A DNA stretch of 33,433 bases. Origin: Clostridiales bacterium (GTDB lineage: Bacteria; Bacillota; Clostridia; Lachnospirales; Lachnospiraceae). Below the pieces are notes generated by a model. It saw only the letters and a program-made list of their open reading frames with translations. It did not search any database and was not told the DNA's origin. Where the stretch lies: NCBI GenBank assembly GCA_023663185.1, contig JAMPHY010000031.1, positions 1 through 33,433 on the forward strand, written 5' to 3'. Below are positions 5,716 through 26,456 of this stretch, one piece after another (within the stretch, counting starts at the first letter, position 1; each line of letters opens with the position of its first letter). Both the position numbers and the translations under genes were made by a program.

Positions 5716-5867
5716 GCGTCAGGGGCACATATGTTTTCACTTAAGGTCCTTGTAAAACGCCGGTACTTAGCGAAAAAGCTGCTTTTTAAGCTTTTGAGCT
5801 TAGTACCGCTGCGATTTTACACGGAGCGAGAGCGTGCCTTAAGTGGAAACATATGTGCTTCTGACGC
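5716..5867 (+). repeat. Palindromic structured element, copy 1 (MITE-like or ncRNA)
   Basis: This 152-bp element lies 24 nt after the stop codon of the threonine ammonia-lyase gene, in the 315-bp gap before yitT. Outer arms 5716-5745 and 5838-5867 pair over all 30 positions; the only three non-Watson-Crick positions are G-T pairs on the plus strand, which would be G-U wobbles in plus-strand RNA. The core holds GTCCTTG, the stem GTAAAACGC with GCGATTTTAC, the stem CGGTACT with AGTACCG, a tip stem AAAAGCT with AGCTTTT, and a hairpin at 5820-5836 capped by a GAGA (GNRA) tetraloop. Both arms contain CATATG. A run of eight C follows the right end (5867-5874), then GAACTG, as at the ends of copies 3 and 4. 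Confidence 0.9.
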
Positions 5868-5891
5868 CCCCCCCGAACTGCCGCTAACTTA

Positions 5892-7106
5892 TTATATACT
5901 CGCCCTTACCAACTCCGGATTATACCCGCTTTCTTCAAGCGCCTTTATTATCTGGTTCTTATGCTCCGTACCATACGCCTCCAAAGTAATCCTCAGCTCC
6001 ACAGCCGCATTCCTATTAATCGATACGAACTGATTGTGCTCAAGTTTAATTACGTTTCCGCTCTGCTTCGCGATTATATCCGATACTCTGGAAAGCTCGC
6101 CCGGCTTATCCGGAAGCAGCACCGATACGGTAAAAATTCTGTCGCGCATTACAAGCCCTTGCTGCACCACCGAGGACATAGTAATAACGTCCATATTTCC
6201 GCCGCTTAAAATCGATACTACTTTTTTATTTTTTACTCCCAGATGTTTAAGCGCCGCTACCGTAAGCAGACCTGAATTTTCCACCACCATTTTATGACTC
6301 TCGACCATATCCAAGAACGCCACTACAAGCTCCTCGTCGTCTACTGTAATAATGTCGTCCAGATTCTTTTTTACATAGGGGAAAATTATGCTTCCCGGAG
6401 TCTTAACCGCAGTACCGTCCGCAATCGTATTCACGCTCTCAAGCGTCAAAACTTTTCCCGCCTTAACTGATTCCTGCATACAGTTAGCGCCCGCAGGCTC
6501 CACTCCAATTACCTTAATCTTAGGATTGAGCAGCTTAGCAAGGGTGGATACTCCTGCGGCCAGACCGCCACCGCCGATTGGCACCAGAATATAATCTACA
6601 AGCGGCAATTCCTTAATAATCTCCATCGCGATAGTTCCCTGTCCTGTCGCCACGTCCAAGTCATCAAAAGGGTGTACAAATGTATATCCGTGTTCCTCCG
6701 CCAATTTATACGCATGTTCACACGCCTCGTCATAGACATCGCCATACAAAACCACCTCTGCTCCATAGCCCTTCGTTCTGTTGACTTTTATAAGTGGAGT
6801 CGTCGTAGGCATTACGATAGTCGCCTTGCCCCCATAGCATTTAGCAGCGTAGGCAACGCCCTGCGCATGATTTCCTGCCGAAGCCGTAATGATACCCTTC
6901 TGTCTCTCTTCGTCTGTGAGGGTGCTCATTTTATAATATGCGCCCCTTAATTTATATGCGCCTGTAAGCTGCATATTCTCTGGCTTAAGATAAACCTTGT
7001 TTCCAGTCTGCGCACTAAAATAATCGCTGTATACAAGCTTAGTCTCCTGCGTAACCTTCTTAACAACCTCGCATGCTTCCTCAAATTTATCTAATGACAA
7101 TTCCAT
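5892..7106 (-). CDS. ilvA: Threonine ammonia-lyase with C-terminal ACT domain
   Basis: The 404-residue PLP enzyme converts threonine to 2-oxobutanoate and ammonia, feeding isoleucine synthesis or propionate formation. K52 in TGAYKLRGA is the expected Schiff-base lysine; ASAGNHAQG (75-83) and the phosphate-binding GGGG at 178-181 are the fold type II signatures; SGGN at 301-304 lines the PLP ring. A single ACT-like domain spans about 324-400. This single-ACT length (about 400) is the type often named IlvA or TdcB, shorter than the E. coli IlvA with two regulatory domains, so either a biosynthetic or a catabolic role is possible. AAGGAG is 7 nt before the ATG. It sits between element copies 1 and 2. 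No T-box or leader peptide is visible upstream. Confidence 0.92.
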   Translation of the reverse strand: MELSLDKFEEACEVVKKVTQETKLVYSDYFSAQTGNKVYLKPENMQLTGAYKLRGAYYKMSTLTDEERQKGIITASAGNHAQGVAYAAKCYGGKATIVMPTTTPLIKVNRTKGYGAEVVLYGDVYDEACEHAYKLAEEHGYTFVHPFDDLDVATGQGTIAMEIIKELPLVDYILVPIGGGGLAAGVSTLAKLLNPKIKVIGVEPAGANCMQESVKAGKVLTLESVNTIADGTAVKTPGSIIFPYVKKNLDDIITVDDEELVVAFLDMVESHKMVVENSGLLTVAALKHLGVKNKKVVSILSGGNMDVITMSSVVQQGLVMRDRIFTVSVLLPDKPGELSRVSDIIAKQSGNVIKLEHNQFVSINRNAAVELRITLEAYGTEHKNQIIKALEESGYNPELVRASI

Positions 7107-7147
7107 ATCCCCACTCCTTTTCCTTTTATAGTATCAACAGTCTCAGG

Positions 7148-7286
7148 GCGACATGGACTCATATGCTTCCTCTTGAGGTCCTTGTAAAACGCCGGTACTT
7201 AGCGAGGTATTTTCGAGCTTAGTACCGCTGCGATTTTACACGGAGCGAAAGCGTGCCTCAAGTGGAATCATATGAGTTCATGTCGC
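7148..7286 (+). repeat. Palindromic structured element, copy 2
   Basis: The shortest complete copy, 139 bp, starting 16 nt after the ftsY stop. The outer arms begin GCGACATG and end CATGTCGC and pair through CATATG with three non-Watson-Crick positions (one G-T, one C-T, one T-T). The core is nearly identical to copy 1 (GTCCTTGTAAAACGCCGG, TTAGTACCGCTGCGATTTTA), but the tip hairpin is shortened. The 17-nt side hairpin at 7239-7255 is capped by GAAA where copy 1 has GAGA, both GNRA loops. Orientation is the same as copies 1 and 4. Confidence 0.9.
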
Positions 7287-7302
7287 ATTCAGCCATAATA
7301 CT

Positions 7303-8232
7303 CTATTCCCTAACAAAAAGCGCCTCCACAAACTGCTCCGAATCAAACTTCTGCAAATCCTCAATCGTCTCCCCAACTCCGATATATTTTACGGGAATCT
7401 TAAGCTCCGACTGAATCGCTACCGCAATCCCGCCTTTAGCCGTTCCGTCCATTTTAGTAAGTATTATTCCGGTAAGATTAGCGACTTCTCCAAATTCCTT
7501 CGCCTGCTGCAAGGCATTCTGTCCGGTAGATGCGTCAAGCACCACCAGATTTTCCCTATGAGCGTTTGGAAATTCCTTATCTATAATGCGATTAATCTTC
7601 TTCAGCTCTTCCATTAAGTTTTTCTTATTATGAAGTCGTCCCGCGGTATCGCAGAGCAGTACATCGACATTTCTAGCCTTAGCCGCCGCTACCGCGTCGA
7701 AAATTACACTCGCAGGATCAGAGCCTTCATTTCCGCTTATTATATCGACTCCGGCGCGGTTCGCCCATTCAGCAAGCTGTTCTCCTGCCGCTGCGCGAAA
7801 AGTATCAGCCGCAGCTAATAGCACCTTTCTACCGTCTGCTTTTAGCTTGCCGGCAAGCTTACCAATAGAAGTGGTCTTGCCTACGCCGTTGACTCCGATA
7901 ACAAGTATCACGGACTGCTTATGTTCAAATTCATAAGCGGTATCGCCTACCTGCATCTGCTCCTTGATGTTCTGAATCAGAAATTCTTTACATTCTGCGG
8001 GTTCTTTAATATGGTTTTCTTTTACCTGCGCACGCAGCTTCTCTAAAATCTCCTCGGTCGCATTCACGCCTATATCGCCCATAATAAGAATTTCTTCCAG
8101 TTCTTCATAGAAATCCTCGTCTATATATGAGAAGCCGTTAAATACTGAATCAATTCCGCGTACAATATTATCCCTTGTCTTAGCCAGTCCGTTTTTTAAT
8201 CTGGCAAAAAATCCTTTTTTCTCTTCACTCAT
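7303..8232 (-). CDS. ftsY: Signal recognition particle receptor FtsY
   Basis: The 309-residue SRP-type GTPase is the membrane docking receptor for ribosome-SRP complexes during cotranslational protein targeting. The helical N domain (about 1-95) is followed by the G domain with P-loop GVNGVGKTT at 113-121, DTFRAAA at 143-149, DTAGR at 195-199 and TKMDGTAKGG near 260. The long acidic A domain of E. coli FtsY is absent, as usual in Firmicutes; a short amphipathic N-terminus (KKGFFARLKNGL) probably binds the membrane. Its ATG overlaps the smc stop by one base (TAATG), so the two are translationally coupled. Palindromic element copy 2 follows its stop and may help end the transcript. Confidence 0.96.
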   Translation of the reverse strand: MSEEKKGFFARLKNGLAKTRDNIVRGIDSVFNGFSYIDEDFYEELEEILIMGDIGVNATEEILEKLRAQVKENHIKEPAECKEFLIQNIKEQMQVGDTAYEFEHKQSVILVIGVNGVGKTTSIGKLAGKLKADGRKVLLAAADTFRAAAGEQLAEWANRAGVDIISGNEGSDPASVIFDAVAAAKARNVDVLLCDTAGRLHNKKNLMEELKKINRIIDKEFPNAHRENLVVLDASTGQNALQQAKEFGEVANLTGIILTKMDGTAKGGIAVAIQSELKIPVKYIGVGETIEDLQKFDSEQFVEALFVRE

Positions 8233-11200
8233 TAATCGTCCAATTCCTTATCTATTAAATTTACGCTTACCAAGGTCGATACGCCTTTTTCCTGCATCGT
8301 AATACCATACAGTCTGTCGGCTTTCTCCATCGTGCCGCGCCTGTGCGTGATAACGATAAACTGTGTGTTCTTCGTCAGCTTATGTAGATATTTGGCAAAC
8401 CTTCCTACGTTGTTCTCATCAAGCGCTGCCTCAATCTCATCTAGCAGACAGAACGGCGAAGGCTTAAGGTTCTGTATTGCAAACAGCAGGCAGATGGCGG
8501 TAAGGGACTTCTCCCCGCCGGACATCTGCATCATATTTACCAGCTTCTTACCGGGCGGCTGTGCAATAATACGTATTCCCGCCTCTAGCACGTCCTCGTC
8601 CTCGATAAGCTCCAATGTGCCCCGTCCGCCGCCGAACAGCTCTTTGAACACCTTGTCAAACTCCTTATTGATTTCGGCAAACTTCTCTGTAAACTGCTTG
8701 CGCATAGAGGTATCAAGCTCTTCAATAATACCGAGCAGAGTTTCTTCCGCCTCTACCAAGTCGTCATGCTGTCCCTTTAAGAAAGTATATCTCTCCATCA
8801 GGTTCTTATAATCTTCAATGGCGTTTACATTGACGTCGCCCAATTTTCTGATTTCATCTTTTAACCTTGAAATATCCTTCTTCATTGCAGAAAGGTCTGT
8901 CATTTCTTCGTTACGCATTGCCGAAGCGTCCGAAAGCGTGATTTCATACTCTTCCCACATATAGTTAATCTGAGTTTCGATGGACTCTTCCATCTTCTCT
9001 TTTTGAGAGTTCAGACGATACACTTCCTTATCCAATGAGTTCATCTGCTCCGAGAGCTTCTCTCTTTCAGCAAAGAAATTCTTCTGCTTGGTTGAAAGTT
9101 CTTCCTTAGAAGCAATATCCTCTTTAAGTTTTATCTCCGTCTCCGACTGCGTGGTATGGGAAGCAAGAATAGTCTTTTCTAACTCTTCGATATTCTGTTT
9201 TCTGCGCTCCACTTCTTCTTTGCCGAGCTTCAAGCCGTCCTGTACTTCCTTAAGTTCCAGTTCGTAGCGTTCAATCTCTCCCGTAATACGATCTACGTTC
9301 TGTTTATGGAAGTCAGCCTTTTGCAGCATCTTCTCTACTTCTACGTCCCACTCTGAGACTTTCGCGCTCTGCTTAGACTCCTCTTCCCTTTCTTCTTCGA
9401 GTCTGCCCTGATAGTCGCTTATTCGCGCTTCCATATCCTTCTCTAACTGTTCGGACTCTTCAAGCTCTTTAATGATATCCTGCTTATTATTCTGAATTTC
9501 CAGCAGTTGATTTTCCATATCGGTCTCTTCCGCCTTCAATTCGCCGAAGCCCTCCGCAACTTCGTCCTTACGCTCGTTTGCCTGAATTACGTTCAGTCTC
9601 GCCGTATTCTGCTCAATAAATTTACGCTGTAACTGCCCCTTAATATCTTCTATTTCAAGTCTTAATTTATTCCTCTTTGTCTTGGTAGCTTCTATATCCT
9701 CTAAGAGCCTGTCTATTTCCACTACATACTGCTTAACCTTTTTCTCAAGCTCGTCCATCTCTCTACGCCGTCCCAAAAGGTTGCTGTTATTTTTATAGGT
9801 ACCGCCGCTTATGGCGCCGCCCGGAACAAGCAGTTCGCCCTCTATTGTCACCATACGGATACTGTAATGGTATTTGGCGGCAATTTTAACCGCGTTGTCC
9901 ATATTATCAATTACTACTATGCGCCCCAGCATTGATTTAGCCACGTCGCGATACTTTTTGTCTATCTTAACAAGCTCATCCGCCATGCCGATTGCGCCTT
10001 TTTCATTAAGCACCTGCTTATTATTAAATTCCTGCGGATTTTTAATGCTTGTAAGCGGCAGGAAGGTAGCACGCCCCGCTTTGGTACGCTTTAAAAAGGT
10101 AATCATGCTCTTAGCGGTCTCTTCGTCCTCTGTCACAATATTCTGAATATTGCCGCCAAGCGCCGTCTCGATTGCGGTTTCGTATTTCGCCTCAACCTGA
10201 ATAATATCCGCCACTACGCCTATTATCCCTTTATGCTCATGCTTCTGCTCCATAACCGCCTTGACCGAACCGCCGTAGCCTTCATATCTCTCAGTCAGAT
10301 TGGAAAGCGCCTCTAACTTAGATTTCTCCTGATGGTAAGACACCTGCGTATCGCGCAGCTTCTGGTCTTTATCCGCCAGCTCGTCGCGCATTCCCGCCAG
10401 TCTTTCTTCTAAGGTCTCCTGATTATCCTGCAATTTTTTAATGGCGCTGCTTACTTTTTCAAATTCTTCCTCCAGATTCTTAATCGTCTCCGTCTGCGCC
10501 GCTTCGTCTGATTTTGCACGCAAAATTCTTGAGTTTAACTCCGATTTTCTGATTTGAATCTGCTCTAACATCGTATCGAAGCGCCCCATTTTAGATTTAA
10601 TGGTCGCCCTGTTATTAAGCGCTTCAATTATTGTATTTTTATCTTCTTCAATACGGGCGTTAATTTCCTCTATCTTAGTCTGGACCTTTTCAAGCAGCCC
10701 TCTCGCTTCCTCGCGTGCAGCGTTAAGAGCAGCAAGTTTATCGTCAATCTCGCCCTTTTCTGTAAGAATGCCTTCTTTCTCCTGATTTCTTTCATCTATT
10801 GACGCTTTAATATTATCAATCCTGGAAAGCAGATGTTCCTCATTTCCCTGCGCAGAATTAATCTGCTCTTTTAATACGTTAATTTCACCTTCTAATTTGG
10901 AGCGCAATACGCCCGTATCTGTAAGTGTGGCACGCGCTTCTTCTATTTCTTTATCAAGGCTTTCAAGCCTTGCTTCTATCTGCTCATATTCTTCTTTTAT
11001 ATTTTCATATTTCTTAGTAGTCTCTTCTAAATCGCCGCCTGCGATATTCAACTTCTCCTCAACCGCATCAAGCTGGCTTTTAACCTTCACATTTTCAAGC
11101 AGAAAGGTATTGACGTCCAGCGTTTTTAATTCTTCTTTTTTGCGAAGATATACTCTTGCTTTTTCAGACTGCTTTTCCAACGGCTCAATCTGCTTCTCAA

Positions 11201-11792
11201 GTTCTGCCAGAATATCATTCACACGCACCAGATTTTGTTTCTCGTCCTCTAATTTCTTCTGCGCCGCGTATTTTCTACGTTTGAATTTAACGATACCCGC
11301 CGCCTCGTCGAACAACTCGCGTCTCTCCTCCGGCTTGCCGCTAAGTATCTTATCAATCTGTCCCTGACCTATAATGGAATAGCCTTCCTTACCTATACCC
11401 GTATCATAGAAAAGCTCGTTCACGTCTTTTAAACGGCAGGGTGCGCCGTTTATCATATATTCGCTCTCCCCCGAACGATACAGCCTCCTTGAAACCGTAA
11501 CCTCGTCATAGTCAATCGCAAGCTGATGATCGGAATTATCCAGTGTAATTGCCACATAAGCATAACCTAAAGCCTTACGCATCTCCGTACCGGAAAAAAT
11601 TACGTCCTGCATAGACGCCCCGCGAAGCTGTTTAATGCGCTGTTCGCCTAACACCCATCTTACAGCGTCCGCAACGTTGCTCTTACCGCTTCCGTTCGGT
11701 CCTACTATACCCGTGATACCGTTGTGAAACTGAAATGTAATTTTATTTGCAAATGACTTAAATCCTTGTACTTCAATACTCTTTAGATACAT
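8232..11792 (-). CDS. smc: Chromosome segregation ATPase SMC
   Basis: The 1186-residue protein has the full SMC layout: N-terminal ATPase lobe with Walker A GPNGSGKSN at 31-39, a long coiled coil, a hinge at roughly 505-670 (around GYGGSVKAVM to GGAISGG), a returning coiled coil, and a C-terminal lobe with the signature MSGGEKSLTA and Walker B FCLLDEIEAALD. It forms the condensin-like SMC-ScpAB complex that loads at the origin and organises the chromosome. Length is typical for Firmicutes. It starts 19 nt after rnc and runs into ftsY, the conserved rnc-smc-ftsY order. GAGG lies 5 nt before the ATG. Confidence 0.98.
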   Translation of the reverse strand: MYLKSIEVQGFKSFANKITFQFHNGITGIVGPNGSGKSNVADAVRWVLGEQRIKQLRGASMQDVIFSGTEMRKALGYAYVAITLDNSDHQLAIDYDEVTVSRRLYRSGESEYMINGAPCRLKDVNELFYDTGIGKEGYSIIGQGQIDKILSGKPEERRELFDEAAGIVKFKRRKYAAQKKLEDEKQNLVRVNDILAELEKQIEPLEKQSEKARVYLRKKEELKTLDVNTFLLENVKVKSQLDAVEEKLNIAGGDLEETTKKYENIKEEYEQIEARLESLDKEIEEARATLTDTGVLRSKLEGEINVLKEQINSAQGNEEHLLSRIDNIKASIDERNQEKEGILTEKGEIDDKLAALNAAREEARGLLEKVQTKIEEINARIEEDKNTIIEALNNRATIKSKMGRFDTMLEQIQIRKSELNSRILRAKSDEAAQTETIKNLEEEFEKVSSAIKKLQDNQETLEERLAGMRDELADKDQKLRDTQVSYHQEKSKLEALSNLTERYEGYGGSVKAVMEQKHEHKGIIGVVADIIQVEAKYETAIETALGGNIQNIVTEDEETAKSMITFLKRTKAGRATFLPLTSIKNPQEFNNKQVLNEKGAIGMADELVKIDKKYRDVAKSMLGRIVVIDNMDNAVKIAAKYHYSIRMVTIEGELLVPGGAISGGTYKNNSNLLGRRREMDELEKKVKQYVVEIDRLLEDIEATKTKRNKLRLEIEDIKGQLQRKFIEQNTARLNVIQANERKDEVAEGFGELKAEETDMENQLLEIQNNKQDIIKELEESEQLEKDMEARISDYQGRLEEEREEESKQSAKVSEWDVEVEKMLQKADFHKQNVDRITGEIERYELELKEVQDGLKLGKEEVERRKQNIEELEKTILASHTTQSETEIKLKEDIASKEELSTKQKNFFAEREKLSEQMNSLDKEVYRLNSQKEKMEESIETQINYMWEEYEITLSDASAMRNEEMTDLSAMKKDISRLKDEIRKLGDVNVNAIEDYKNLMERYTFLKGQHDDLVEAEETLLGIIEELDTSMRKQFTEKFAEINKEFDKVFKELFGGGRGTLELIEDEDVLEAGIRIIAQPPGKKLVNMMQMSGGEKSLTAICLLFAIQNLKPSPFCLLDEIEAALDENNVGRFAKYLHKLTKNTQFIVITHRRGTMEKADRLYGITMQEKGVSTLVSVNLIDKELDD

Positions 11793-11811
11793 ATATACCT
11801 CGCATATACAC

Positions 11812-12498
11812 TTATTTCTTAAGTCGTTTAAGCGCTTCGTATGCAGCTCTTTGCTCCGCCGACTTTTTAGTTTTTCCTGAGCCTGTTCCGATTATCTTTT
11901 CGTCTATTTTTGCCTCTACAATGAACTTTTTATCATGGTCGGGACCTTTCTCGCTTACAAGCTCATAATGAAGAATCCCCTTATTATCACGCTGCACATA
12001 CTCCTGAAGCGTAGTCTTAGAGTCGTAGAACAACTGCTTCTTCTCAAGGTCTGAAAAAATATACTTATTGATAAACTTAGACGCATTCTCCATGCCGCCG
12101 TCTAAGTATACCGCTCCGATTATTGCTTCCATAACGTCAGAAATTATCGAGTCCTTATTTCTGCCGTCTGTCATTTCCTCGCCCCTGCCAAGCTTTATAT
12201 ATTCTTCAAGCTTAAACATTCTGGCACAATAAGCAAGCGCCGACTCACATACCATAGACGCCCTCAGTTTAGTAAGCTCGCCCTCGCTCATGGTCTGATT
12301 TTCATGAAAAAGAAATTCGCTTGTGACAAGCTCTAACACGGCGTCGCCTAAAAATTCCAGCCGCTCATAGTCTCCATATTTATTGATTTTCTGCTCATTG
12401 GCAAAAGAGCTGTGCGTCAATGCCTGCTTAAGCAGCAGCTTGTCCTTAAAAGAATATCCGATTTCTTTTTCCAATTCTTCAATAGATATCTGTCTCAT
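11812..12498 (-). CDS. rnc: Ribonuclease III
   Basis: The 228-residue enzyme cuts double-stranded RNA in rRNA processing and mRNA turnover. The signature ERLEFLGDAV carries E45, E48 and D52, and a second cluster carries D121 and E124; all five align with E. coli E38, E41, D45, D114 and E117 at a constant offset of seven. A double-stranded RNA binding domain fills about 157-226. I choose the ATG at 12498, with GGAAAG 10 nt upstream; a TTG six codons earlier at 12516 is also possible. It is preceded by a terminator-like hairpin after acpP, so rnc-smc-ftsY may be expressed at a reduced level from the upstream operon. Confidence 0.96.
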   Translation of the reverse strand: MRQISIEELEKEIGYSFKDKLLLKQALTHSSFANEQKINKYGDYERLEFLGDAVLELVTSEFLFHENQTMSEGELTKLRASMVCESALAYCARMFKLEEYIKLGRGEEMTDGRNKDSIISDVMEAIIGAVYLDGGMENASKFINKYIFSDLEKKQLFYDSKTTLQEYVQRDNKGILHYELVSEKGPDHDKKFIVEAKIDEKIIGTGSGKTKKSAEQRAAYEALKRLKK

Positions 12499-12514
12499 CT
12501 GCTTCCATCTTTCC

Positions 12515-12553
12515 AAAACAACAAAAACAAAACGCAGACTTAGGCAGCCTGCG
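12515..12553 (-). terminator. Terminator-like hairpin between acpP and rnc
   Basis: On the minus strand CGCAGGCT pairs with AGTCTGCG (12533-12553, one G-T pair, about 8 bp, short loop), followed by TTTTGTTTTTG. It would partly terminate transcription after acpP and so lower expression of rnc, smc and ftsY relative to the fatty-acid and ribosomal genes upstream. Confidence 0.6.
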
Positions 12554-12580
12554 CCCTATTCACAACGGCACAAACAATTA

Positions 12581-12820
12581 TTACATCGCTGAATCAACAG
12601 CGCTCTTAATTAAGTTTACCGCCTCGCCGACCGTTGTAATATTTTCTATCTTGTCTTCGGGGATTTCCATATCGAACTCTTCTTCAATACCCATTACAAT
12701 TTGGTATATATCCAATGAGTCTGCGCCTAAATCCTCCGTAAATGTAGTTTCTGTCGTAATTTCCTCCGGATCTACATTTAAAATGTCTGCAATAATTTTT
12801 TTGAGTTTTTCAAATTCCAT
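12581..12820 (-). CDS. acpP: Acyl carrier protein
   Basis: The 79-residue acidic protein carries growing acyl chains in fatty-acid synthesis on a phosphopantetheine arm. The attachment serine is S35 in LGADSLD. Size and composition are typical. AAGGAAGG stands 11 nt before the ATG. It lies 17 nt after plsX, the usual pairing with the enzyme that draws acyl groups from it, and is followed by a terminator-like hairpin. Confidence 0.97.
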   Translation of the reverse strand: MEFEKLKKIIADILNVDPEEITTETTFTEDLGADSLDIYQIVMGIEEEFDMEIPEDKIENITTVGEAVNLIKSAVDSAM

Positions 12821-12837
12821 AATAAAGCCAACCTTCC

Positions 12838-13848: not shown

Positions 13849-13888
13849 GCCTATAACGCTGCTCCTTCCTCATGTGCAAATCGCATAC

Positions 13889-13922
13889 TTTTAAAAGTCC
13901 CCATCAGACATATCTAATGGGG
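13889..13922 (-). terminator. Hairpin between rpmF and plsX
   Basis: On the minus strand CCCCATTAGA pairs with TCTGATGGGG (13899-13922, 10 bp with one T-G pair, 4-nt loop), followed by ACTTTTAAAAG. The short T run suggests partial termination or mRNA end protection, letting rpmF be expressed above plsX from the shared promoter. Confidence 0.6.
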
Positions 13923-13928
13923 AAAAGA

Positions 13929-14108
13929 TTACTCAACCGCAATGATTTCTTTTTTGTTGTAAGTTCCACATTTCTTACATACTCTGTGCGGCATCATTAA
14001 AGCTCCGCATTTACTACATTTTACTAATGTAGGAGCAGACATTTTCCAGTTTGCTCTTCTTTTGTCTCTTCTTGATTTAGAAGATTTGTTCTTAGGACAT
14101 ATAGACAT
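13929..14108 (-). CDS. rpmF: Large ribosomal subunit protein bL32
   Basis: A short frame of 59 residues reads MSICPKNKSSKSRRDKRRAN and continues into the bL32 core. Four cysteines at C31, C34, C44 and C47 form a zinc ribbon (CSKC and CKKC), the zinc-binding version of this protein. AAGGAGGTG seven bases before the ATG is the best ribosome site in the window and overlaps the end of the DUF177 gene, whose stop is 2 nt away, so the two are tightly coupled. Confidence 0.97.
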   Translation of the reverse strand: MSICPKNKSSKSRRDKRRANWKMSAPTLVKCSKCGALMMPHRVCKKCGTYNKKEIIAVE

Positions 14109-14110
14109 CG

Positions 14111-14635: not shown

Positions 14636-14661
14636 AGCAGACTCCTATCCACACTCCACCT

Positions 14662-14690: not shown

Positions 14691-14728
14691 CCAAATTTTT
14701 ACTCTATTACGCCTTTTGTGCCATTTAA

Positions 14729-18792: not shown

Positions 18793-18826
18793 TACTATAT
18801 TATCTCCTTCCTAAGTATAAACTTTA

Positions 18827-19453
18827 TCACTTAAATACAATACACGAAATCATATCTGAACCTTTAGTTTCTATAATTACATCGTTATTGCCTGCCTTCA
18901 CGATATTATCGCTTGTATATAGAATTTTGTCAAAAACATTGACGTCAATTTTTTCATCTATTTTAGTCTGTATTATCACCACATGATTGTCCCAAATCTC
19001 TTTTGTATCGCTAAGCTTAGCGCCATCTTCACCATAAACATTTTTCACGGAATAGCCCTGTGCTGACGCTTCTGAAACCGTGCCATAAAAAAATTCCCTG
19101 TTATTATACTGTTCGTAATATTCTCCCGATTTATATATCAGTTTAACGACTATATTTCCATTATTATCTTCTGCCGATTGAAGAATAATATCGCCTTCTT
19201 CATCAGTATATCCGTCTATTTTCTCCTGCGCTTTTGCCGCAAGTTCATTTATATCATAATAGTCCATCTCAAATTGGTCTATAATCTTCTGTTCTATACT
19301 CCCGTCTTTCTTAACGGAAACCGTATCCATTTTGCCCGAAGCTGCGCCTTCTCCTACTAAACTCTCGTAGCTTCCATCACCGCAGCCGGTAACTAAATAT
19401 GCTGACATAATTATTACTGACATAATTGTCAGAAATTTTATCCCTTTTTTCAA
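18827..19453 (-). CDS. Uncharacterised secreted lipoprotein
   Basis: The 208-residue protein has a lipoprotein signal peptide: KKGIKF, a hydrophobic stretch and the lipobox LVTGC with lipid-attached C24. The mature part is acidic, begins with a Gly-Ser-Ala linker, and has no motif I recognise; alternating hydrophobic segments toward the C-terminus suggest a small beta-rich domain. The start codon is TTG, supported by GGAGGGAGGGG five bases upstream. It is wedged between recO (39 nt) and glyS (34 nt) in an otherwise housekeeping run, so it is probably cotranscribed with them. Confidence 0.8.
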   Translation of the reverse strand: MKKGIKFLTIMSVIIMSAYLVTGCGDGSYESLVGEGAASGKMDTVSVKKDGSIEQKIIDQFEMDYYDINELAAKAQEKIDGYTDEEGDIILQSAEDNNGNIVVKLIYKSGEYYEQYNNREFFYGTVSEASAQGYSVKNVYGEDGAKLSDTKEIWDNHVVIIQTKIDEKIDVNVFDKILYTSDNIVKAGNNDVIIETKGSDMISCIVFK

Positions 19454-19492
19454 CTTTTCCCCTCCCTCCGACTGTACTACATTATATCTAAC

Positions 19493-20158
19493 TTATTCAG
19501 AATATTCAAGCTTTATATCTTCCAGTATTTCCAGACTTTTAAAAGCTTTATCCACATAACGCTTTCTATATTCATCTGCAATGTTTTTTAACTGCGCCAG
19601 AACTGTCTTAGTTACCGTAAAAGTATATAGTTTTTCGACAGATGACGCCATAATATAATTTACTGTATATATTGTAGACTCGTCGAAATCCCTTTCCTTA
19701 GGAACTCCGGGAAATTCTCCGGCAAGTACCATTGCCTTAATTTCAAATATGTAACGCACCATGTCGTTAGGGAGTTTTTCGTGCATAAGCGCCCGCAGCG
19801 ACTGATACAAGAGTTTTAGCATTTCCTTATCTTCATTATTTTCTCTGGTATAGTAATCCATCACCTCTAAAAAATACATTCCATAATACGCGCCTTCAAA
19901 ATCCGTTCTAAGCCCCTCAAAATAATTACTTATATTGGCTTCGACAAGGTTATATGACGACCTTCCCACATAGAGCTTAAAAGTACCAAAAGAAAAAGGG
20001 TTAGTGGCAGCAAGTAATCTGCTGCCCTGCTTTCTTGCCCCTTTTGCAAAGGCGGAAAGCTTCCCTCTTTCTTTCGTCAAAATAACTACTCTTCTGTCAT
20101 ATTCTCCTATTGGTTCAACCTTTAAAACCATTCCCGTAATCTCTATATATTCCTGCAT
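19493..20158 (-). CDS. recO: DNA repair protein RecO
   Basis: The 221-residue protein carries an N-terminal OB fold (EITGMVLKVEPIGEYDRRVVILTKERGK) typical of RecO, which with RecF and RecR loads RecA onto SSB-coated DNA. The start at 20158 is chosen because GGTGGAC lies 6 nt upstream; the longer frame starting at 20230 adds 24 residues unlike the family and lacks a site. The CxxC zinc pairs of many RecO proteins are absent and the C-terminal half is short. Its start lies inside the end of yqzL (44-nt overlap), a coupled arrangement. Confidence 0.9.
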   Translation of the reverse strand: MQEYIEITGMVLKVEPIGEYDRRVVILTKERGKLSAFAKGARKQGSRLLAATNPFSFGTFKLYVGRSSYNLVEANISNYFEGLRTDFEGAYYGMYFLEVMDYYTRENNEDKEMLKLLYQSLRALMHEKLPNDMVRYIFEIKAMVLAGEFPGVPKERDFDESTIYTVNYIMASSVEKLYTFTVTKTVLAQLKNIADEYRKRYVDKAFKSLEILEDIKLEYSE

Positions 20159-20300
20159 GAGAATGTCCACCCGACTTAATCTTATTGTCAAAGTCTTCCG
20201 CTTTGCCGTTTTCTGCATCCTGTTGTGCATTTTTATATGAGAGGAAGTCGTATATGCTTCCGGTCATAAGAAATCTGTCCCAGTAATTTATATCCTTCAT
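20115..20300 (-). CDS. yqzL: YqzL family small protein
   Basis: The 61-residue protein reads MKDINYWDRFLMTGSIYDFL then SYKN, matching the W..F..TG.I..YL.YK pattern of Firmicutes YqzL, a short protein encoded between era and recO in Bacillus and relatives. The rest is polar and Gly/His-rich. GGGGGC lies 5 nt before the ATG. The last 44 nt overlap the recO start in another frame. Function is unknown; the conserved position between era and recO is the best evidence that it is real. Confidence 0.75.
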   Translation of the reverse strand: MKDINYWDRFLMTGSIYDFLSYKNAQQDAENGKAEDFDNKIKSGGHSHAGIYRDYGNGFKG

Positions 20301-20353
20301 CTTAAGCCCCCTAAGCTATTGCATACTATTAGGGTTCGCATATTTCATATTTT

Positions 20354-21265
20354 CTATTCTGAATCCTTAGGATTATATCCGAAATTTTTCAGAAGAAAAT
20401 CACTGTCGCGCCAGTCCTTCTTTACCTTTACCCACAGCTTAAGATTAACCTTAGACTCTACCAAATCCTCTATGTCCGGTCTTGCCATTGAACCGATTTT
20501 CTTTAACATACTTCCCTGTTTGCCAATAATTATACCCTTATGCGATTCCTTCTCGCAGATAATCGTCGCCTCTATATCTACAATACGCTTTCTGTAATTC
20601 ATAGACTCAATCGTTACCGCGACGCCATGCGGTATCTCGTCCTCTAAACATCTAAGCGCCTTCTCACGAATCAACTCTGCTACTATCTGTCGTATCGGCT
20701 GGTCTGTGATAGTGTCTTCATCATAAAAAGGTATGCCTTCCGGCAGATACTTCATAATATATGAAATAAGCTCGTCAACTCCACGGTCTTTAAGCGCCGA
20801 TACCGGTATAATCTCGGCAAAATCAAGTTGTTTTCTGTATGTATCGATAACGGCAAGGATTTCTTCTTTTTTAATCGTATCGATTTTGTTAATCACAAGG
20901 ATAACAGGTGTTTTTATTTTAGCAAGCTGCTCAATTATATGGCGTTCCCCTGCTCCGATAAAACAGGTTGGTTCAACCAGCCACAGCACCACGTCTACAT
21001 CTGACAAGGTCCTTTCGGCAACGCCCACCATATAATTGCCGAGTTTATTTTTTGCCTTATGGATTCCCGGCGTATCTAAAAAGACAATCTGCCCCTCCTT
21101 AGAGGTATATACGGTCTGAATCCTGTTTCTCGTAGTCTGGGGCTTATTGGAGGTAATCGCAATCTTCTGCCCTATTATGTTATTCATAAGCGTAGATTTG
21201 CCTACATTCGGTCTGCCTATCAATGTGGCAAAGCCTGCCTTATAATGTTCCTGTTCCTTGTTCAT
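20354..21265 (-). CDS. era: GTPase Era
   Basis: The 303-residue ribosome assembly GTPase binds the 3' end of 16S rRNA and the 30S subunit. The G domain has GRPNVGKST at 17-25, DTPGIH at 64-69 and NKID at 126-129; a KH domain follows with GIIIGKQGSMLKKIG around 240-255. The ATG lies 4 nt after the DUF4349 gene, and its ribosome site GAGG is within the end of that gene at 12 nt, indicating coupling. It heads the era-yqzL-recO run conserved in Firmicutes. Confidence 0.97.
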   Translation of the reverse strand: MNKEQEHYKAGFATLIGRPNVGKSTLMNNIIGQKIAITSNKPQTTRNRIQTVYTSKEGQIVFLDTPGIHKAKNKLGNYMVGVAERTLSDVDVVLWLVEPTCFIGAGERHIIEQLAKIKTPVILVINKIDTIKKEEILAVIDTYRKQLDFAEIIPVSALKDRGVDELISYIMKYLPEGIPFYDEDTITDQPIRQIVAELIREKALRCLEDEIPHGVAVTIESMNYRKRIVDIEATIICEKESHKGIIIGKQGSMLKKIGSMARPDIEDLVESKVNLKLWVKVKKDWRDSDFLLKNFGYNPKDSE

Positions 21266-21269
21266 TGGC

Positions 21270-22328
21270 TCATTTTTCCTCTTCTTTCTGATTCTGTGGC
21301 GGAATGTTCATATTCTGCGGCTGCATGCTCATGTTCTGCGGTTGTTGTACTTTAAGAGCTTTCTTAGCTTTTCTCTTTCTCATAACAAATCTTATTACCA
21401 TGAACGCGACGAAAATCACTACCGCCCAGATAATTATATAAGGGATATTGACTACAAACCATATAAAGAAGTTCACAATCCCCTGCCCGATATTATAAAT
21501 CGAATTTGAAAAACCGTTCCTAATCTTATCCCAGACGGTCTTTTCTTCCGTGAGGGTATATCTCTTTACTTCCCTGATAGTCAGATTAATTGTGCTGTAA
21601 TCAATCTGGTTGTCAAGGGTTCTAAGCTGTGACTCCATGCTCTCAAGCTGGTATCTTACATCAGAAAGCCGCTGTTCTATCGTAATTATATCTTCTACGG
21701 TTTCCGCCACTTCAAGTAAGTCTAAGAGTCTATCCTGTTCAGTAACAAGTGTTTTTTTATGACTCTCTAAGTCCACATATCTTAAAGTAACGTCTTCTAC
21801 CTGTTCTTCCTTGTTGGTGATATTGGTCTGTTCGCCCACTTTTTCGATAAAACTATCCAGATTATTCACCGGAATGCGAATCTGCATATTGGCGTGGCGG
21901 TTTTCCGTATAATCGGAATAGCCGCTGCCATTATACTGATACTGGTATTCAATGTAGCCGCCAAGCGCCTTAATCTGCGCTTCCAGTCCGGCAATCAGAG
22001 CGTCGTATTCTTCCGTCTCGGCGTTTAAGCTTACCGTCTTAATCAGCTTTCTTTGCGACTGACTTACTTCTTCGCTTTGAACCTGCGCGCCGCCCGCCTC
22101 CGCTGCGACCGCAGATTCTTCCGTCATGTAGTCTGCCGTCTCATATTCGACTGACGGCTCCATCAGCATATCTGCAGTTGCACTCGTTGTATAACTAGCG
22201 TTATTATATGCTGCACCACCGGCATTCTGCACCGCCGTGTCATATGCTTTCGAGCCTGAGTTTCCGCAGCCCGTAATAAGAGCCGTAATAACAAGTATCC
22301 CCGCCATTATGACAAGTTTCTTCTTCAT
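21270..22328 (-). CDS. DUF4349 lipoprotein
   Basis: The 352-residue envelope protein has a lipoprotein signal with lipobox LITGC (C21), a Ser/Ala/Glu-rich linker, a DUF4349 domain (LIKTVSLNAETEEYDALIAG and the cysteine-free body to about 250) with a helical hairpin (VTLRYVDLESHKKTLVTEQD and on), and a C-terminal membrane helix near 285-315 (FFIWFVVNIPYIIIWAVVIF). After a basic segment it ends in a Gln/Pro/Asn/Met-rich tail with QPQNM repeats and EEEK. It is thus tethered at both ends. AGGAGG lies 7 nt before the ATG at 22328, so I reject an ATG seven codons earlier. Function is unknown; it is likely cotranscribed with era. Confidence 0.88.
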   Translation of the reverse strand: MKKKLVIMAGILVITALITGCGNSGSKAYDTAVQNAGGAAYNNASYTTSATADMLMEPSVEYETADYMTEESAVAAEAGGAQVQSEEVSQSQRKLIKTVSLNAETEEYDALIAGLEAQIKALGGYIEYQYQYNGSGYSDYTENRHANMQIRIPVNNLDSFIEKVGEQTNITNKEEQVEDVTLRYVDLESHKKTLVTEQDRLLDLLEVAETVEDIITIEQRLSDVRYQLESMESQLRTLDNQIDYSTINLTIREVKRYTLTEEKTVWDKIRNGFSNSIYNIGQGIVNFFIWFVVNIPYIIIWAVVIFVAFMVIRFVMRKRKAKKALKVQQPQNMSMQPQNMNIPPQNQKEEEK

Positions 22329-22435
22329 AGTATTTCCTCCTTTTCGCAATTAAAGCGTTACGTTAAAATTTTCTTTACACTATAATATACGAATGGCAAA
22401 AAATATTTTATGGGTTTTTTTATAGTAAACTTTTT

Positions 22436-25357
22436 TTAATGAAATAAATATTCAGTTTCATTAAACATCTGCTTCTGCTGCTTGATTTTTTCTTCATTTC
22501 CTACTACGCACAAGCAGTCGTCAGCCATAAACGCCCTTATATATTCAGCAAGTCCCCTGAATGTCTCAGGCTGCACGCTAAGAAGTTCGTCCCTCTCCTT
22601 TTGCACCTGTTCATAAGTGTAATGAGTCATATAACCCGCCAATGAATATGCGCCCTTTCTTGCCGGAGTCATCGGCGTATCCAGTTCGCCAATCGCACCG
22701 ATAATATACTGCGTCATTGTTCTTTCATCTGCCTCAAACTTCTCAATATAATCCGCCGCTTTCTCATAGATATCTATGGTTTTGTTAAGATTTGGATCCC
22801 TGTATGATACGAAAAAGCTTTCTCCGGTTTTCCCAAAACTGCACATACAGCCATATGCGCCGCCCTTGACGCGAACCTGCGTCCAGAGGTAATCGCCGCT
22901 AAGCATGGTCTTAAGCGCCTTAAGCGCTCCCGTATAAGCCAGCCCTTTATGACTAAAATTACCAGCCCTACACACATACTGCACCTGTGCAGAGGACATA
23001 AAGCCTTCGTTCTTCTTCTCAGTAACCGGTACATACGGCTGGGATTCAATAACACCTGTATTCAAACTTCCTGCAAGGTTTATTATATAATCGTCGATTT
23101 TATCAAGCCCTTCCCTCTGCGCCGTATAATCCACCATCATATTTTCCGCTCTGAAAATATACTCTGTCAGTTTGTTAAGCTTCTCTATAAGTTCCGTCTT
23201 ATGCTTGTCAAAATCGTTATCAAGCTCCTCTAACATACGATAGTACGGAAGCCCGCTTATGCTGTCGGAGATTGACGCCGTCTTGGATATATATGAAAGC
23301 GCGCGCGCCATAGCGAGCCAATGTCCTGCCGACATCATACTCGCCTGTTTCTGTGACTTTAACTCTGCAATCAACTCATGCAGACGCTTTTCGTTGCTGA
23401 ATACGGAGTTCATAATTATCTCTTTTACCAATTCAAACGCCTTATCCAGATTTTCATACAACACCTTTGCCCTGATTTCAAGCGTAACCGTGTATTTCTG
23501 CACATCGAGGGCGTCCGTATAGGTATTAGCTACTGTATCAATTCCACCGGTCTGTATATTTATTTCGTTAAATAACTCCCCGTAGGTATAGTTCTTCGTA
23601 TCTACCATTCCCAGAATGGATTTTAATAAGCCCACATATGAGAAAAGCTCTTCCGGAACCTGCCGCAAATCAAACATAAACCGCAGATATCCGATACCGT
23701 TAGTAAATATGTCATGGTAAAGCAGCAGAGTATCCCCCGCTTTTCTCTCCTCATTGACATATTTTTCCGCTTCCTTTTTCATATCTTCTCTCTTAAGCAT
23801 AGGAATTTTTTCCAAGTCCTCTTTAGGACTGGGTTCTTCCTGATACTGCTTTAACGCCTTAGTCTGCTCCACTATCTCTTCAAGCTGCTCTGTGGATAAT
23901 TCAGCCTTCTTCTTAGCCAATTTATCCGCCAGTTCTTTATCCTTCCTGCCGGTCAGCCCCTTAGACGGCTCTATCACCACTATAGTCCTGTGATTGTTGC
24001 CTAACAGATTCTTCTGAATAAGCTTCTCATAATAATCCGTGTCGATTGCCGCTTTTAGAATCTTGTAAGTCTCGTCCGCCTCAATGTGCATAAACGGAAG
24101 GTCGTCGTCATAAAGCCAACTGTCAAGCGCCTGCAGACCGAATAATAACCCCTTCGGGTGCGAGCCGAAATCCGCTTCCCTATATCTGAACTCATAGTAA
24201 TTTAAGCCCGCCTTCAACGCTTTTTTATCAAGCCCCTGCGTGACAAGCTTCTCTAATACATTCTCGATGGTGTCCGTAAATTCAGAAAGCTGTTCTTTAT
24301 TGGCGTTTTTTGCCACAATCGAGAAATACGGCTGTTTAATACCATTTTCATACATACTCTCTATATCTTTACCAATACCCTTATCGATAAGCGCCTGTTT
24401 AAGCGGAGCTCCGGGCGCAGCGCAAAGCGCATAGTCAAGCACCTGAAAAGCGATATACTGCTCTTTGTCCAGATTATTTCCAAAGGAAACATTATAAGAC
24501 AGATAGGTATTATCCTTCTCAGACTCACTCTCCATAATCGGATACTCTTTATATACTGAAATCGGTTTAGCAAAAGGAGCTTCCGTTGCAAGCGCTGAAT
24601 CCACTTCCAGCGCATCATACTTGGACAGATATTCTTCGTCTAAAAAGGTAAGCTTCTGCGCCATGTCCATATCGCCGTACAGATAAATATAGCTGTTAGA
24701 CGGGTGATAATATCTTTTATGAAATTCAAGGAAATCGCTATAGGTAAGATTAGGAATATCATCGGGATCGCCGCCCGACTCCACTGAATAAGACGTATGC
24801 GGATACAAAGAATTCATAATCTCTCTGATAAGCACATCATCAGGCGATGAATACGCGCCCTTCATTTCATTATAAACCACACCGTTAAGAGTGAGCTCGT
24901 CGTCTACGCTCTCCATCTCATAGTGCCAGCCCTCTTGCTTGAAGATTTTCTCCTCATGATATATATTAGGGTGGAAAACCGCGTCCAGATAGACGTCCAT
25001 AAGGTTCTGGAAGTCTTTATCATTGCAGCTTGCCACCGGATATACCGTCTTATCAGGAAATGTCATCGCGTTTAAAAATGTATTTAACGAACCCTTAAGC
25101 AATTCAACAAAAGGATCTTTAACCGGAAATTTATCGGAGCCGCAAAGCACGCTATGCTCAATAATATGAGCAACGCCTGTACTGTCCTTAGGCGGCGTCC
25201 TGAAGCCGATATAAAAAACTTTATTATTATCATCATTTGACAACAGCACGATTTTTGCGCCTGTTTTATTATGTTTCAACCTGTATCCTACTGAATTTAA
25301 TTCTTTTATCTCTCTTTTCTCTAATACTGTATAAGCCTGTAACTGTTCAATCTGCAT
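22436..25357 (-). CDS. M16C family zinc metallopeptidase (presequence peptidase / insulinase-like)
   Basis: The 973-residue protein has the inverted zinc motif HIIEH at 64-68 (H64, E67, H68), with E164 in YNEMKGAYSSP as third ligand; the 96-residue gap matches PreP-type peptidases. It holds two halves of the M16 clam-shell fold joined by an M16C-associated helical linker around 470-540, with the second half lacking the zinc motif. No signal peptide is visible, so it is probably a cytoplasmic oligopeptidase that degrades peptides of moderate size. AAGGAG is 12 nt before the ATG. A promoter at 25421-25449 lies next to palindromic element copy 3. Confidence 0.93.
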   Translation of the reverse strand: MQIEQLQAYTVLEKREIKELNSVGYRLKHNKTGAKIVLLSNDDNNKVFYIGFRTPPKDSTGVAHIIEHSVLCGSDKFPVKDPFVELLKGSLNTFLNAMTFPDKTVYPVASCNDKDFQNLMDVYLDAVFHPNIYHEEKIFKQEGWHYEMESVDDELTLNGVVYNEMKGAYSSPDDVLIREIMNSLYPHTSYSVESGGDPDDIPNLTYSDFLEFHKRYYHPSNSYIYLYGDMDMAQKLTFLDEEYLSKYDALEVDSALATEAPFAKPISVYKEYPIMESESEKDNTYLSYNVSFGNNLDKEQYIAFQVLDYALCAAPGAPLKQALIDKGIGKDIESMYENGIKQPYFSIVAKNANKEQLSEFTDTIENVLEKLVTQGLDKKALKAGLNYYEFRYREADFGSHPKGLLFGLQALDSWLYDDDLPFMHIEADETYKILKAAIDTDYYEKLIQKNLLGNNHRTIVVIEPSKGLTGRKDKELADKLAKKKAELSTEQLEEIVEQTKALKQYQEEPSPKEDLEKIPMLKREDMKKEAEKYVNEERKAGDTLLLYHDIFTNGIGYLRFMFDLRQVPEELFSYVGLLKSILGMVDTKNYTYGELFNEINIQTGGIDTVANTYTDALDVQKYTVTLEIRAKVLYENLDKAFELVKEIIMNSVFSNEKRLHELIAELKSQKQASMMSAGHWLAMARALSYISKTASISDSISGLPYYRMLEELDNDFDKHKTELIEKLNKLTEYIFRAENMMVDYTAQREGLDKIDDYIINLAGSLNTGVIESQPYVPVTEKKNEGFMSSAQVQYVCRAGNFSHKGLAYTGALKALKTMLSGDYLWTQVRVKGGAYGCMCSFGKTGESFFVSYRDPNLNKTIDIYEKAADYIEKFEADERTMTQYIIGAIGELDTPMTPARKGAYSLAGYMTHYTYEQVQKERDELLSVQPETFRGLAEYIRAFMADDCLCVVGNEEKIKQQKQMFNETEYLFH

Positions 25358-25420
25358 TTTATAACTATGCTCCTTCCTAAATTTTCTCTGCTTATGGTTT
25401 TATATTGCTGCATATGGTTT

Positions 25421-25449
25421 AGTATATCACCTATGGGGAAAATAAGCAA
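25421..25449 (-). promoter_or_regulatory. Promoter of the M16C peptidase gene
   Basis: On the minus strand TTGCTT (25444-25449) and TATACT (25421-25426) are 17 bases apart. The -35 box begins 7 nt from the edge of element copy 3, so the element abuts, and may influence, this promoter. The same TTGCTT-17-TATAAT arrangement is found at 28402-28430. Confidence 0.55.
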
Positions 25450-25455
25450 AACAAA

Positions 25456-25655
25456 AGTTCAGCCCACAGGCAGCATGAGCACATATGTCTCCCCTTGAGG
25501 CACGCTCTCGCTCCGTGAAAAATCGCAGCGGTACTAAGCTCAAAAGCCATAAAACAGGCTTTTTCACTAAAGTACAAGACCACTTTCTGTGGTCTGCGTT
25601 TTTCAAGGACCTCTGCGCGAAGACATATGTGCTCATGCTGCCTGTGGGCTGAACT
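25456..25655 (-). repeat. Palindromic structured element, copy 3 (reverse orientation, extra internal hairpin)
   Basis: At 200 bp this is the longest copy. The outer arms 25456-25490 and 25621-25655 are a perfect 35-bp inverted repeat. Read on the minus strand the core matches the others: GGTCCTTG, GAAAAACGC with GCGATTTTTC, GAGCTTAGTACCGCTGCG, and the GNRA hairpin (25501-25517, GAGA loop). It differs in one arm by an added hairpin, GACCAC with GTGGTC around AGAAA, inserted between CGC and GTACT. The tip stem is AAAAGCC with GGCTTTT, a compensated change from AAAAGCT/AGCTTTT in copy 1. The right flank GGGCTGAACTGTCT is shared with copy 4. Confidence 0.9.
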
Positions 25656-25660
25656 GTCTA

Positions 25661-25701
25661 TTAAAAGAACCGGCAAAAACAAAAAATGTTTCTACCGGTT
25701 C
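25661..25701 (-). terminator. Rho-independent terminator
   Basis: GAACCGG (25667-25673) and CCGGTTC (25695-25701) form a 7-bp stem extendable through AAAC/GTTT; on the minus strand it is followed by CTTTTAA. It lies about 115 nt after the stop of the unknown protein gene and just before element copy 3, so most transcripts would end before reaching the element. Confidence 0.7.
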
Positions 25702-25781
25702 AGTGTAAAAGGGGAATTTTACCAGAATTTGTCTAGTAGAGTCAGTTTAACAGAAAATAATGTCAAAATCAAGTGTTTTAT

Positions 25782-25809
25782 GCGCTAAATAATTTGTTAT
25801 TTATCGCGC
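25782..25809. terminator. Hairpin just after the unknown gene, possible bidirectional terminator
   Basis: GCGC and TAAATAA pair with TTATTTA and GCGC across a 4-nt loop with a 2-nt bulge. It begins 6 nt beyond the stop codon at 25815. The plus-strand side is followed by TATTTTTATAC, the minus-strand side by a poor T run. Confidence 0.45.
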
Positions 25810-25814
25810 TATTT

Positions 25815-26258
25815 TTATACACTAAAAGATATCATTGCCAGCTTAGAAATCATTATCTCCTGTATTTTCAAACCGCATTTTTTCTTCTGTGCAAGATTCA
25901 TCTGCACTAACTTTTCAAGCGGAAGGTTCATATTCTTATAAACCAGCTTATTTGCCCCGAAAAGTCCCTTTTTCTCTATGTACATACATACTTTAACCTT
26001 CGTCTTAAGCTGCATATAGGTCTTATAGGAAAAATCTTCCTTATTCATATAATAAAACTGGCTCTCAAGCGTGGTATCCGCCTGCGTATCCTTCATTATA
26101 TAATGCTCGATAATACTCTTTAACTTAAACGGAACCATCTCATTCCCGATAATCTCCGCATAATTATAGCGGGCGCCCATATACAGACTTCCCACGTCCT
26201 GCATAAAATATTTAAAATCGTTATCCTGATATTTATCGTCTGTCTCAAACTGCTCCAT
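25815..26258 (-). CDS. Conserved-looking protein of unknown function
   Basis: The 147-residue soluble protein has no signal peptide, membrane helix or motif I recognise. The first half is acidic with aromatic residues (KYFMQDVGSLYMGARYNYAE), the second half is basic (KTKVKVCMYIEKKGLFGANK and KKKCGLKIQEIMISK). Its ribosome site is weak: AAAGG stands 17 nt before the ATG. It is enclosed by two palindromic elements in opposite orientation, copy 3 downstream and copy 4 upstream, with copy 4 ending 24 nt before its start. Confidence 0.65.
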   Translation of the reverse strand: MEQFETDDKYQDNDFKYFMQDVGSLYMGARYNYAEIIGNEMVPFKLKSIIEHYIMKDTQADTTLESQFYYMNKEDFSYKTYMQLKTKVKVCMYIEKKGLFGANKLVYKNMNLPLEKLVQMNLAQKKKCGLKIQEIMISKLAMISFSV

Positions 26259-26282
26259 CTATTATAATTACCATGCCTTTCT

Positions 26283-26456
26283 TTCAGCCCGCAGGAGCAT
26301 GGACGCATATGCTTCCGTGCAGAAGTCCTTAAAAAACGCCGGTACTTAGTGAAAAAGCATCTTTTCAGCTTTTGAACTTAGTACCCGCTGCGTTTTTTAC
26401 GGAGCGAAAGCGTGCTTCAAGGGGAAGCATATGCGTCCATGCTCCTGCGGGCTGAA
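26283..26456 (+). repeat. Palindromic structured element, copy 4
   Basis: The 174-bp element starts 8 nt after the stop of the sigma-like gene. Outer arms 26283-26316 and 26423-26456 are a perfect 34-bp inverted repeat. The core has AAGTCCTTA, AAAAAACGC with GCGTTTTTT (GTAAAACGC with GCGATTTTAC in copies 1 and 2, so both sides changed), GGTACT with AGTACC, tip AAAAGC with GCTTTT, and the 17-nt side hairpin at 26398-26414 with GAAA loop. Next to the junction GAAG pairs with CTTC where copy 1 has AAGG with CCTT. Right flank GGGCTGAACTGTCT equals that of copy 3. Confidence 0.9.

Follow-up and report, generated by a model that had tools for sequence, protein, structure and literature searches.

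The window analysed here, a stretch of 33,433 nt of contig JAMPHY010000031.1 from a Clostridiales bacterium of the Lachnospiraceae (its own genome is labelled G000, that of a sister species G007), contains four copies of a palindromic repeat that a sequence-only reading had described as possibly a new structured RNA or a miniature inverted-repeat transposable element (MITE). Both descriptions apply: there are more copies, strong covariation in several alignments and no match in Rfam, together with terminal inverted repeats (TIRs) and target-site duplications (TSDs) in related subfamilies. The best-supported identity is a MITE-like element that appears to carry a selected fold, for which we infer a role as RNA. 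We lean, with slightly better than even confidence, towards the interpretation that the four copies belong to a Lachnospiraceae-wide superfamily of MITE-like, non-autonomous elements with a conserved fold that acts in transcripts. A transposase supplied in trans would move the copies as DNA, the fold would be under selection as RNA, and after insertion it would work in transcripts running through the intergenic space.

Fold and covariation

Covariation and folding indicate a long variable arm, P1, and a three-way junction of P2, P3 and P5; P5 is capped by a GNRA loop, and the tip hairpin P4 has a U-U mismatch and usually also a GA/GA internal loop. The four copies are real, being retrieved both by covariance model R1, whose training set includes all of them, and by R2, which was trained on 37 core sequences, one of them a window copy (7173-7262). 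The R2 matches in the window score 99.5, 78.5, 71.7 and 30.3 bits and lie on the strands listed below, and the paired changes that the sequence-only reading had listed for the middle stem, tip and junction recur as it gave them.

5716..5867, +: copy 1; core and inner P1 arms; tip of AAAAGC..GCTTTT type; loop GAGA; R1 and R2 match
7148..7286, +: copy 2; consensus-like copy; tip GAGGTATTTTCGA; loop GAAA; R1 match
7148..7178, +: copy 2, 5' arm of P1 and P2; partner 7256-7286; from pair counts
7180..7181, +: copy 2, CC of the left junction; partner GG 7242-7243; covariation CG/AU/GC/UA, columns 8-72 and 9-71
7183..7192, +: copy 2, 5' strand of P3; partner 7230-7240 with one bulged A; from pair counts
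7193..7203, +: copy 2, 5' strand of P4 with U-U mismatch; partner 7217-7227; TT in 35/35 (the search pattern contains TT)
7204..7205, +: copy 2, GA of the tandem GA/GA internal loop; partner GA 7215-7216; GA/GA in 35/35 (same pattern bias)
7245..7252, +: copy 2, P5 side hairpin GC-GAAA-GC; GNRA loop 7247-7250; GNRA in 102/105 loops
7256..7286, +: copy 2, 3' arm of P2 and P1; from pair counts
25456..25655, -: copy 3; outer arms TTCAGCCC../..GGGCTGAA; extra P4 hairpin (GACCAC..GTGGTC); loop GAGA; R1 and R2 match
26283..26456, +: copy 4; outer arms TTCAGCCC../..GGGCTGAA; loop GAAA; R1 and R2 match

The model-matched cores of copies 3 and 4 are 25470-25641 (-) and 26294-26445 (+). Outer complementarity of copy 1 (GTTC/GAAC) extends to 5707-5878, and with 10-13 nt of flank this copy folds at -93.1 kcal/mol (z -11.2).

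In alignment A2, the 32 copies on which R1 is based, 29 of 57 pairs changed on both sides, compared with 12.8 in shuffles and 2 to 9 with slid partners, and 96.6% of the pairing cells pair versus 89.5% after shuffling. Excluded from A2 for its chimeric left arm was L016 (G000 C45:3420-3556), in which unrelated sequence stands in place of the 5' arm; it is possibly a chimera or a nested insertion. From 82 matches, 38 members were chosen by eye for diversity, and 35 of them form A3, which omits L189 and L200 (insertions) and L233 (a different fold; kept in A5). Both-side changes occur in 18/31 pairs of A3 (9 to 12 with slid partners), and RNAfold returns the same core for most of the 38 members, although not for a few folded alone, such as L205, L233 and L255. 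A5 and A6 were fitted to models. Across 107 members (103 distinct, 92 chosen sources), again in a model-fitted alignment, both-side changes reach 29 of the 30 core pairs, and 92.0% of cells pair versus 73.7% shuffled.

The GNRA cap that had been noted on the side hairpin within the window holds outside it as well, in 102 of 105 four-base P5 loops (GAAA, GAGA, GCAA, GGAA, GGGA and GCGA; the three exceptions are AAAA, GAAG and AGGA), and the third base is a purine in all 102 four-base loops that begin with G and end with A. In the tip, the U-U mismatch and the GA/GA loop are present in 35/35 members, but the retrieval pattern contained both; the pattern used to find the A3 and A4 members from other genomes has a fixed tip, and their tip conservation partly results from how they were chosen. 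Some genera have a continuous stem instead of the GA/GA loop (L352, L353 and L355). A contact between a conserved TCC in the left junction and a bulged GGA had also been proposed. Its two C's do pair with two G's, with covariation among CG, AU, GC and UA, and these pairs extend the middle stem beyond a mismatch; the T takes no part in the contact and pairs instead with the facing base in the next stem (CG, UG, GC, UA, AU). The A of GGA does not vary among the 37 sequences of A4.

Conservation across genera covers the core positions but not the arms. As among the four window copies, whose outer arms had been described as unlike but complementary, the P1 arms of other species are unrelated in sequence and still self-complementary. 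P1 arms that are long and perfectly paired, whatever their sequence, fit an explanation in which palindromic DNA keeps its pairing mainly by mutation, through template switching or gene conversion, and the fold is under little selection. We regard this as improbable: mutation predicts neither the GNRA loops, nor the conserved U-U and GA/GA, nor a preference for G-U over A-C, and a core that is conserved across genera while the arms vary speaks against it.

The G-U preference was counted in 109 of the 145 G000 and G007 copies, those passing a symmetric criterion, over the first 28 pairs of the arms (another analysis used 129 of the 145). G-U outnumbers A-C by 96 to 30, and 53 copies have a G-U majority compared with 11 with an A-C majority; the copies are related, so p-values are overstated. 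This excess indicates that one strand is the folding strand. Judged from these base changes, it is the strand bearing GGTCCTTG..GGAGCGARAGCG, as RNA or as single-stranded DNA. R2 gave no opposite-strand match at the same place at the threshold used, and weak ones at a laxer threshold. The excess is independent of orientation to the neighbouring genes (G-U to A-C 24:4 in sense, 43:16 in antisense and 29:10 in mixed settings), which favours a different explanation, namely that the fold serves the element itself. Its strand would then be recognized, as single-stranded DNA or as RNA, in replication or transposition, and selection would act on source copies and not on host transcripts. Sequences of the GCGAAAGC type form very stable DNA hairpins too, which counts for the same explanation; the invariable purine at the third loop position, in contrast, follows the RNA rule for GNRA loops. 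We consider this explanation unlikely, and return to it below.

Copy number and distribution

The covariance-model search placed the family at no fewer than 85 loci in G000. This figure is what remains of 140 R1 matches after removal of opposite-strand repeats of the same places, and it is a lower bound because 150 of the 1051 candidates from the initial screen were scored. With copy 2 as a blastn query, 105 candidate places came up in the same genome, and 40 of them were scored. In G007, 60 copies lie within 789 kb, in regions picked partly for containing copies. A sample of the genus gave R1 matches in 58/60 genomes, own genome included (E 0.01), and the proposed search of Lachnospiraceae genomes with the core-only R2 gave matches in 141/299, own included, or 140/298 genera (E 1e-5). 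In a class-wide sample R2 matched 12/391 genomes, all 12 of them Lachnospiraceae. E-values are approximate, and the strict filters drop weak matches. Among the matches listed for the exact tip pattern, most are labelled as metagenome-assembled genomes (MAGs) of Lachnospiraceae or Butyrivibrio; a few bear the labels Acetatifactor, Clostridium, Clostridiaceae or uncultured bacterium, the strain 1XD21-72 is also among them, and one, JAMPBO010000004.1 (L195, L241), is a record named Bacteroides sp. that is possibly a mislabelled MAG.

At the gathering score, no Rfam 15 family matched the window or 16 diverse loci (62 kb), and a relaxed Rfam search of 5600-7400 gave two chance-level matches (best E 0.53). 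A blastn search with copy 2 found nothing in phage or plasmid collections, and IMG/VR gave none in two exact-pattern scans; phage or plasmid cargo was therefore rejected as an identity. No description of this repeat family was found in the open-licence literature, and it is apparently undescribed so far. We think it quite possible, if somewhat short of an even chance, that the core represents an ancient, Lachnospiraceae-specific class of structured RNA outside Rfam that passed through many mobile carriers, the core being inherited and the arms and ends replaced. Such a class would have colonized about half of the genera, with at least 85 copies in the best-sampled genome, and would act on many transcripts at once.

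Ends and mobility

Matches in G000 are 137-208 bp long, apart from one truncated to 88 bp, and by eye no gene was recognized within the elements, as expected of a short non-coding MITE. Pairs of the 17-bp TIR TAGGYAATTGCGAAACT occur in related subfamilies in G060, G062, G007, G000 and G061. Subfamilies with TTGTACAA-like arms end in TAGGYAATTGCGAAACT and are flanked by direct repeats of about 9-12 bp. By eye, TSDs are present at L321, L322, L325, L326, L328, L332, L333 and L335-L338, some with a mismatch, while the direct repeats of L329 and L334 are ambiguous. The TIRs of a pair are spaced 52, 66-99, 138-152 or 208-211 bp apart in G060 and G062, the commonest class in G060 being about 151 bp, and 205-232 bp apart in G007 and G061.

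Six derivatives of 52-90 bp that were read out (L321, L322, L328, L329, L332 and L336) lack the core, and direct repeats are clear in all but one of them. Core-less elements that are dispersed and flanked by direct repeats imply that the core is dispensable in cis for movement in those subfamilies, which counts against a fold that serves the element. In five partial-core derivatives (138-151 bp), however, the GNRA hairpin is kept in four (L323, L324, L326 and L330) and lost in one (L333), a retention that such a fold would explain. The derivatives L332, L321 and L322 are 52 bp long with ends intact or almost so; in L321 and L322 no transposase was recognized by eye, and no family search was run on them.

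The ends of the window subfamily are less certain. Direct repeats of about 10 bp flank a few A-type copies (G000 C52:145765; G007 L177), whereas at the four window copies a duplication is less clear. Insertion sequences whose ends, TAGCCATGAGCAAAACT, resemble those of the MITEs are present at L360 1031-2376 (G060) and at L361 from 803 (G000); their transposase matches PF01609, and the L360 element has 8-bp direct repeats, GATATAAA. Within the window, an open reading frame (ORF) at 348-1370 (-) has a partial match to Transposase_31 / YhgA-like (PF04754, E 1e-6). The family is of the Rpn type; an association with the repeats is conceivable.

Placement, turnover and counter-evidence

Placement was assessed from simple ORF calls for 85 G000, 60 G007 and 74 other-genome copies. 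Copies are intergenic, in both orientations, and lie inside a called ORF in 0/85, 0/60 and 2/74 cases, respectively. Gene ends are close: in G000 the median distance to the stop is 19 bp for an antisense downstream neighbour (52 cases) and 32 bp for a sense upstream one (31 cases), whereas starts are farther away (medians 78.5 and 96 bp). The stop distances are 24 and 28 bp in G007. In the other genomes the contrast is weaker, with stops at 36 and 59 bp and starts at 72 and 63.5 bp.

Copies 1 and 2 have orthologues in G007 (flanks 88-91% identical) and are absent from G011; the ilvA region of 18 other congeners has no R2 match apart from a divergent member between ftsY and ilvA in G035. At one site G000 has a copy of the window subfamily where G007 has one of another subfamily. 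At the site of the G000 member C50:80842, G007 has a different long palindromic repeat (L167, about 3013-3211). G007 lacks the member at C54:107328, where a 10-11 bp repeat may be present. A clean empty site at G000 C3:41952 was suggested by an apparent 9-10 bp duplication and rejected, since G007 retains one terminal motif and a deletion is equally likely. In 15 orthologous pairs from G000 and G007, 56 base pairs changed on both sides and still pair (16 of them from one pair that is perhaps not a simple orthologue), compared with 6 that changed on both sides and are unpaired; 38 one-sided changes broke the pairing and 20 went via G-U.

Several results weigh against our preferred interpretation of MITE-like elements whose fold acts in transcripts. 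On the side of mobility, window-subfamily copies with both TIRs (TTACTATTCACA-like pairs with TTACTATTCACAG-like end motifs) number only 17/145 in G000 and G007, and the direct repeats of this subfamily are imperfect, at about 22 bp in one copy (L005). An autonomous partner with the same ends was not found in the search made for it: the one transposase family tried (PF01609), sought in four draft genomes, occurred at four loci, and at none of these did the ends agree. A further search, for TIR pairs 600-3500 bp apart, covered 341 sequences; in the stretches it gave, no transposase was recognized by eye, and no family search was run on them.

On the side of evolution, 25 of 54 Watson-Crick double changes between orthologues have no G-U path, which fits pairing maintained by mutation, and the wobble excess between orthologues is weak, with 20 single changes to G-U and 12 to A-C. 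Both observations suggest a possible contribution, besides selection, from hairpin correction at the DNA level or from gene conversion.

As to orientation, copies with both neighbours antisense or both sense number 39:17 in G000, 22:17 in G007 and 20:27 in the others, and there is no general bias. A messenger or untranslated-region (UTR) element of fixed orientation is thus not supported, and the explanation in which the fold serves the element is for the same reason kept as a serious rival.

The folded strand shows no clear promoter enrichment: the upstream mean score is 8.13 versus 7.96 in shuffled sequence, scores of at least 9 occur in 54/143 upstream regions versus 37 reading in from the opposite side, and inside the element the score is 6.2 versus 7.1 shuffled. 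An own promoter on the folded strand is accordingly not supported. On the opposite strand, 85/143 A-type copies contain an internal promoter-like match (8-9 of 12); in copy 2 a promoter-like TTGAGG-17-TAAAAT lies at 7261-7233 (-), opposite the fold. These data bear on the idea of a trans-acting small RNA, or a protein-binding decoy, made by the elements from a promoter of their own. The sequence-conserved core across genera and the many copies per genome would suit it, but the folded strand lacks clear promoter enrichment and, because the arms turn over, no conserved flank was seen that could be a common promoter; we give this idea little credence. A run of five T's follows within 40 nt in only 10/145 copies on the plus and 12/145 on the minus strand, and a scan of 5550-7330 found none at copies 1 and 2. 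A Rho-independent terminator, a hairpin followed by a T run, was rejected on this scarcity.

Should the fold of these MITE-like elements work as RNA, it would rank among the more abundant structured RNAs that lack annotation in the gut microbiome, a common one that may have been overlooked so far, and it would show a mobile element delivering one RNA device to many genes. R2 is a covariance model ready for annotation, and cultured Lachnospiraceae permit transcript tests.

Comparison with known systems

REP/RAYT elements, in the part of PMC3733652 drawn on here, are palindromes of 20-40 bp with a GTAG or CGTC tag. The present element, at no less than about 137 bp and with no such tag seen by eye at its ends, is not of this kind. 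In G007, neighbours in opposite orientation, - then +, with short spacers (L180 14155-14483, L168 9177-9489, L177 10145-10485 and L155 18580-19022) resemble REP clusters.

Three repeat families of Streptococcus pneumoniae are treated in the portions of PMC3049150 considered here. SPRITE is described there as enriched at gene 3' ends, resembling Rho-independent terminators and favouring convergent genes. The enrichment at gene 3' ends is shared, as far as that account goes; unlike SPRITE as described, our element rarely has T runs (10/145), and in G000 it has convergent neighbours in 13/85 cases. BOX and RUP are, in the same portions, short, dispersed and tightly folded repeats with TIRs in duplex, found in pneumococcus, to a lesser extent in S. 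mitis and seldom in other streptococci; BOX copies are transcribed, and an effect on co-transcribed genes is thought likely (PMC3049150). In being short, dispersed and folded, with TIRs, they are like the present elements. To judge from these descriptions alone, they are set apart by the range of the core found here, which reaches about half of the Lachnospiraceae genera sampled, and by its GNRA three-way junction.

The bcr1-bcr18 repeats of the Bacillus cereus group, according to the sections of PMC3446304 used here, are intergenic, and 40-51% of the copies are expressed, in UTRs or in gaps within operons; bcr1-bcr3 are MITE-like, bcr10 and bcr18 have conserved RNA structure, and bcr3 alone was associated with decay rate. 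Like them, the present elements are intergenic repeats with MITE-like traits and a conserved fold. The host group differs, however, and in that account MITE-like and RNA-like repeats are separate families, whereas here one element has both traits. By analogy with what is proposed or reported for BOX, bcr, ERIC and Correia elements, a compact RNA block might alter 3'-end decay, processing or read-through. EFAR elements are a further candidate for comparison.

MITEs in general, in the passages of PMC10969869 consulted, have TIRs, direct repeats, stem-loop transcripts and probable mobilization in trans. The present elements share the TIRs and the direct repeats. MITE families usually have a narrow host range; unlike them, these elements have an inner fold that is widely shared, while the arms and ends around it vary between lineages.

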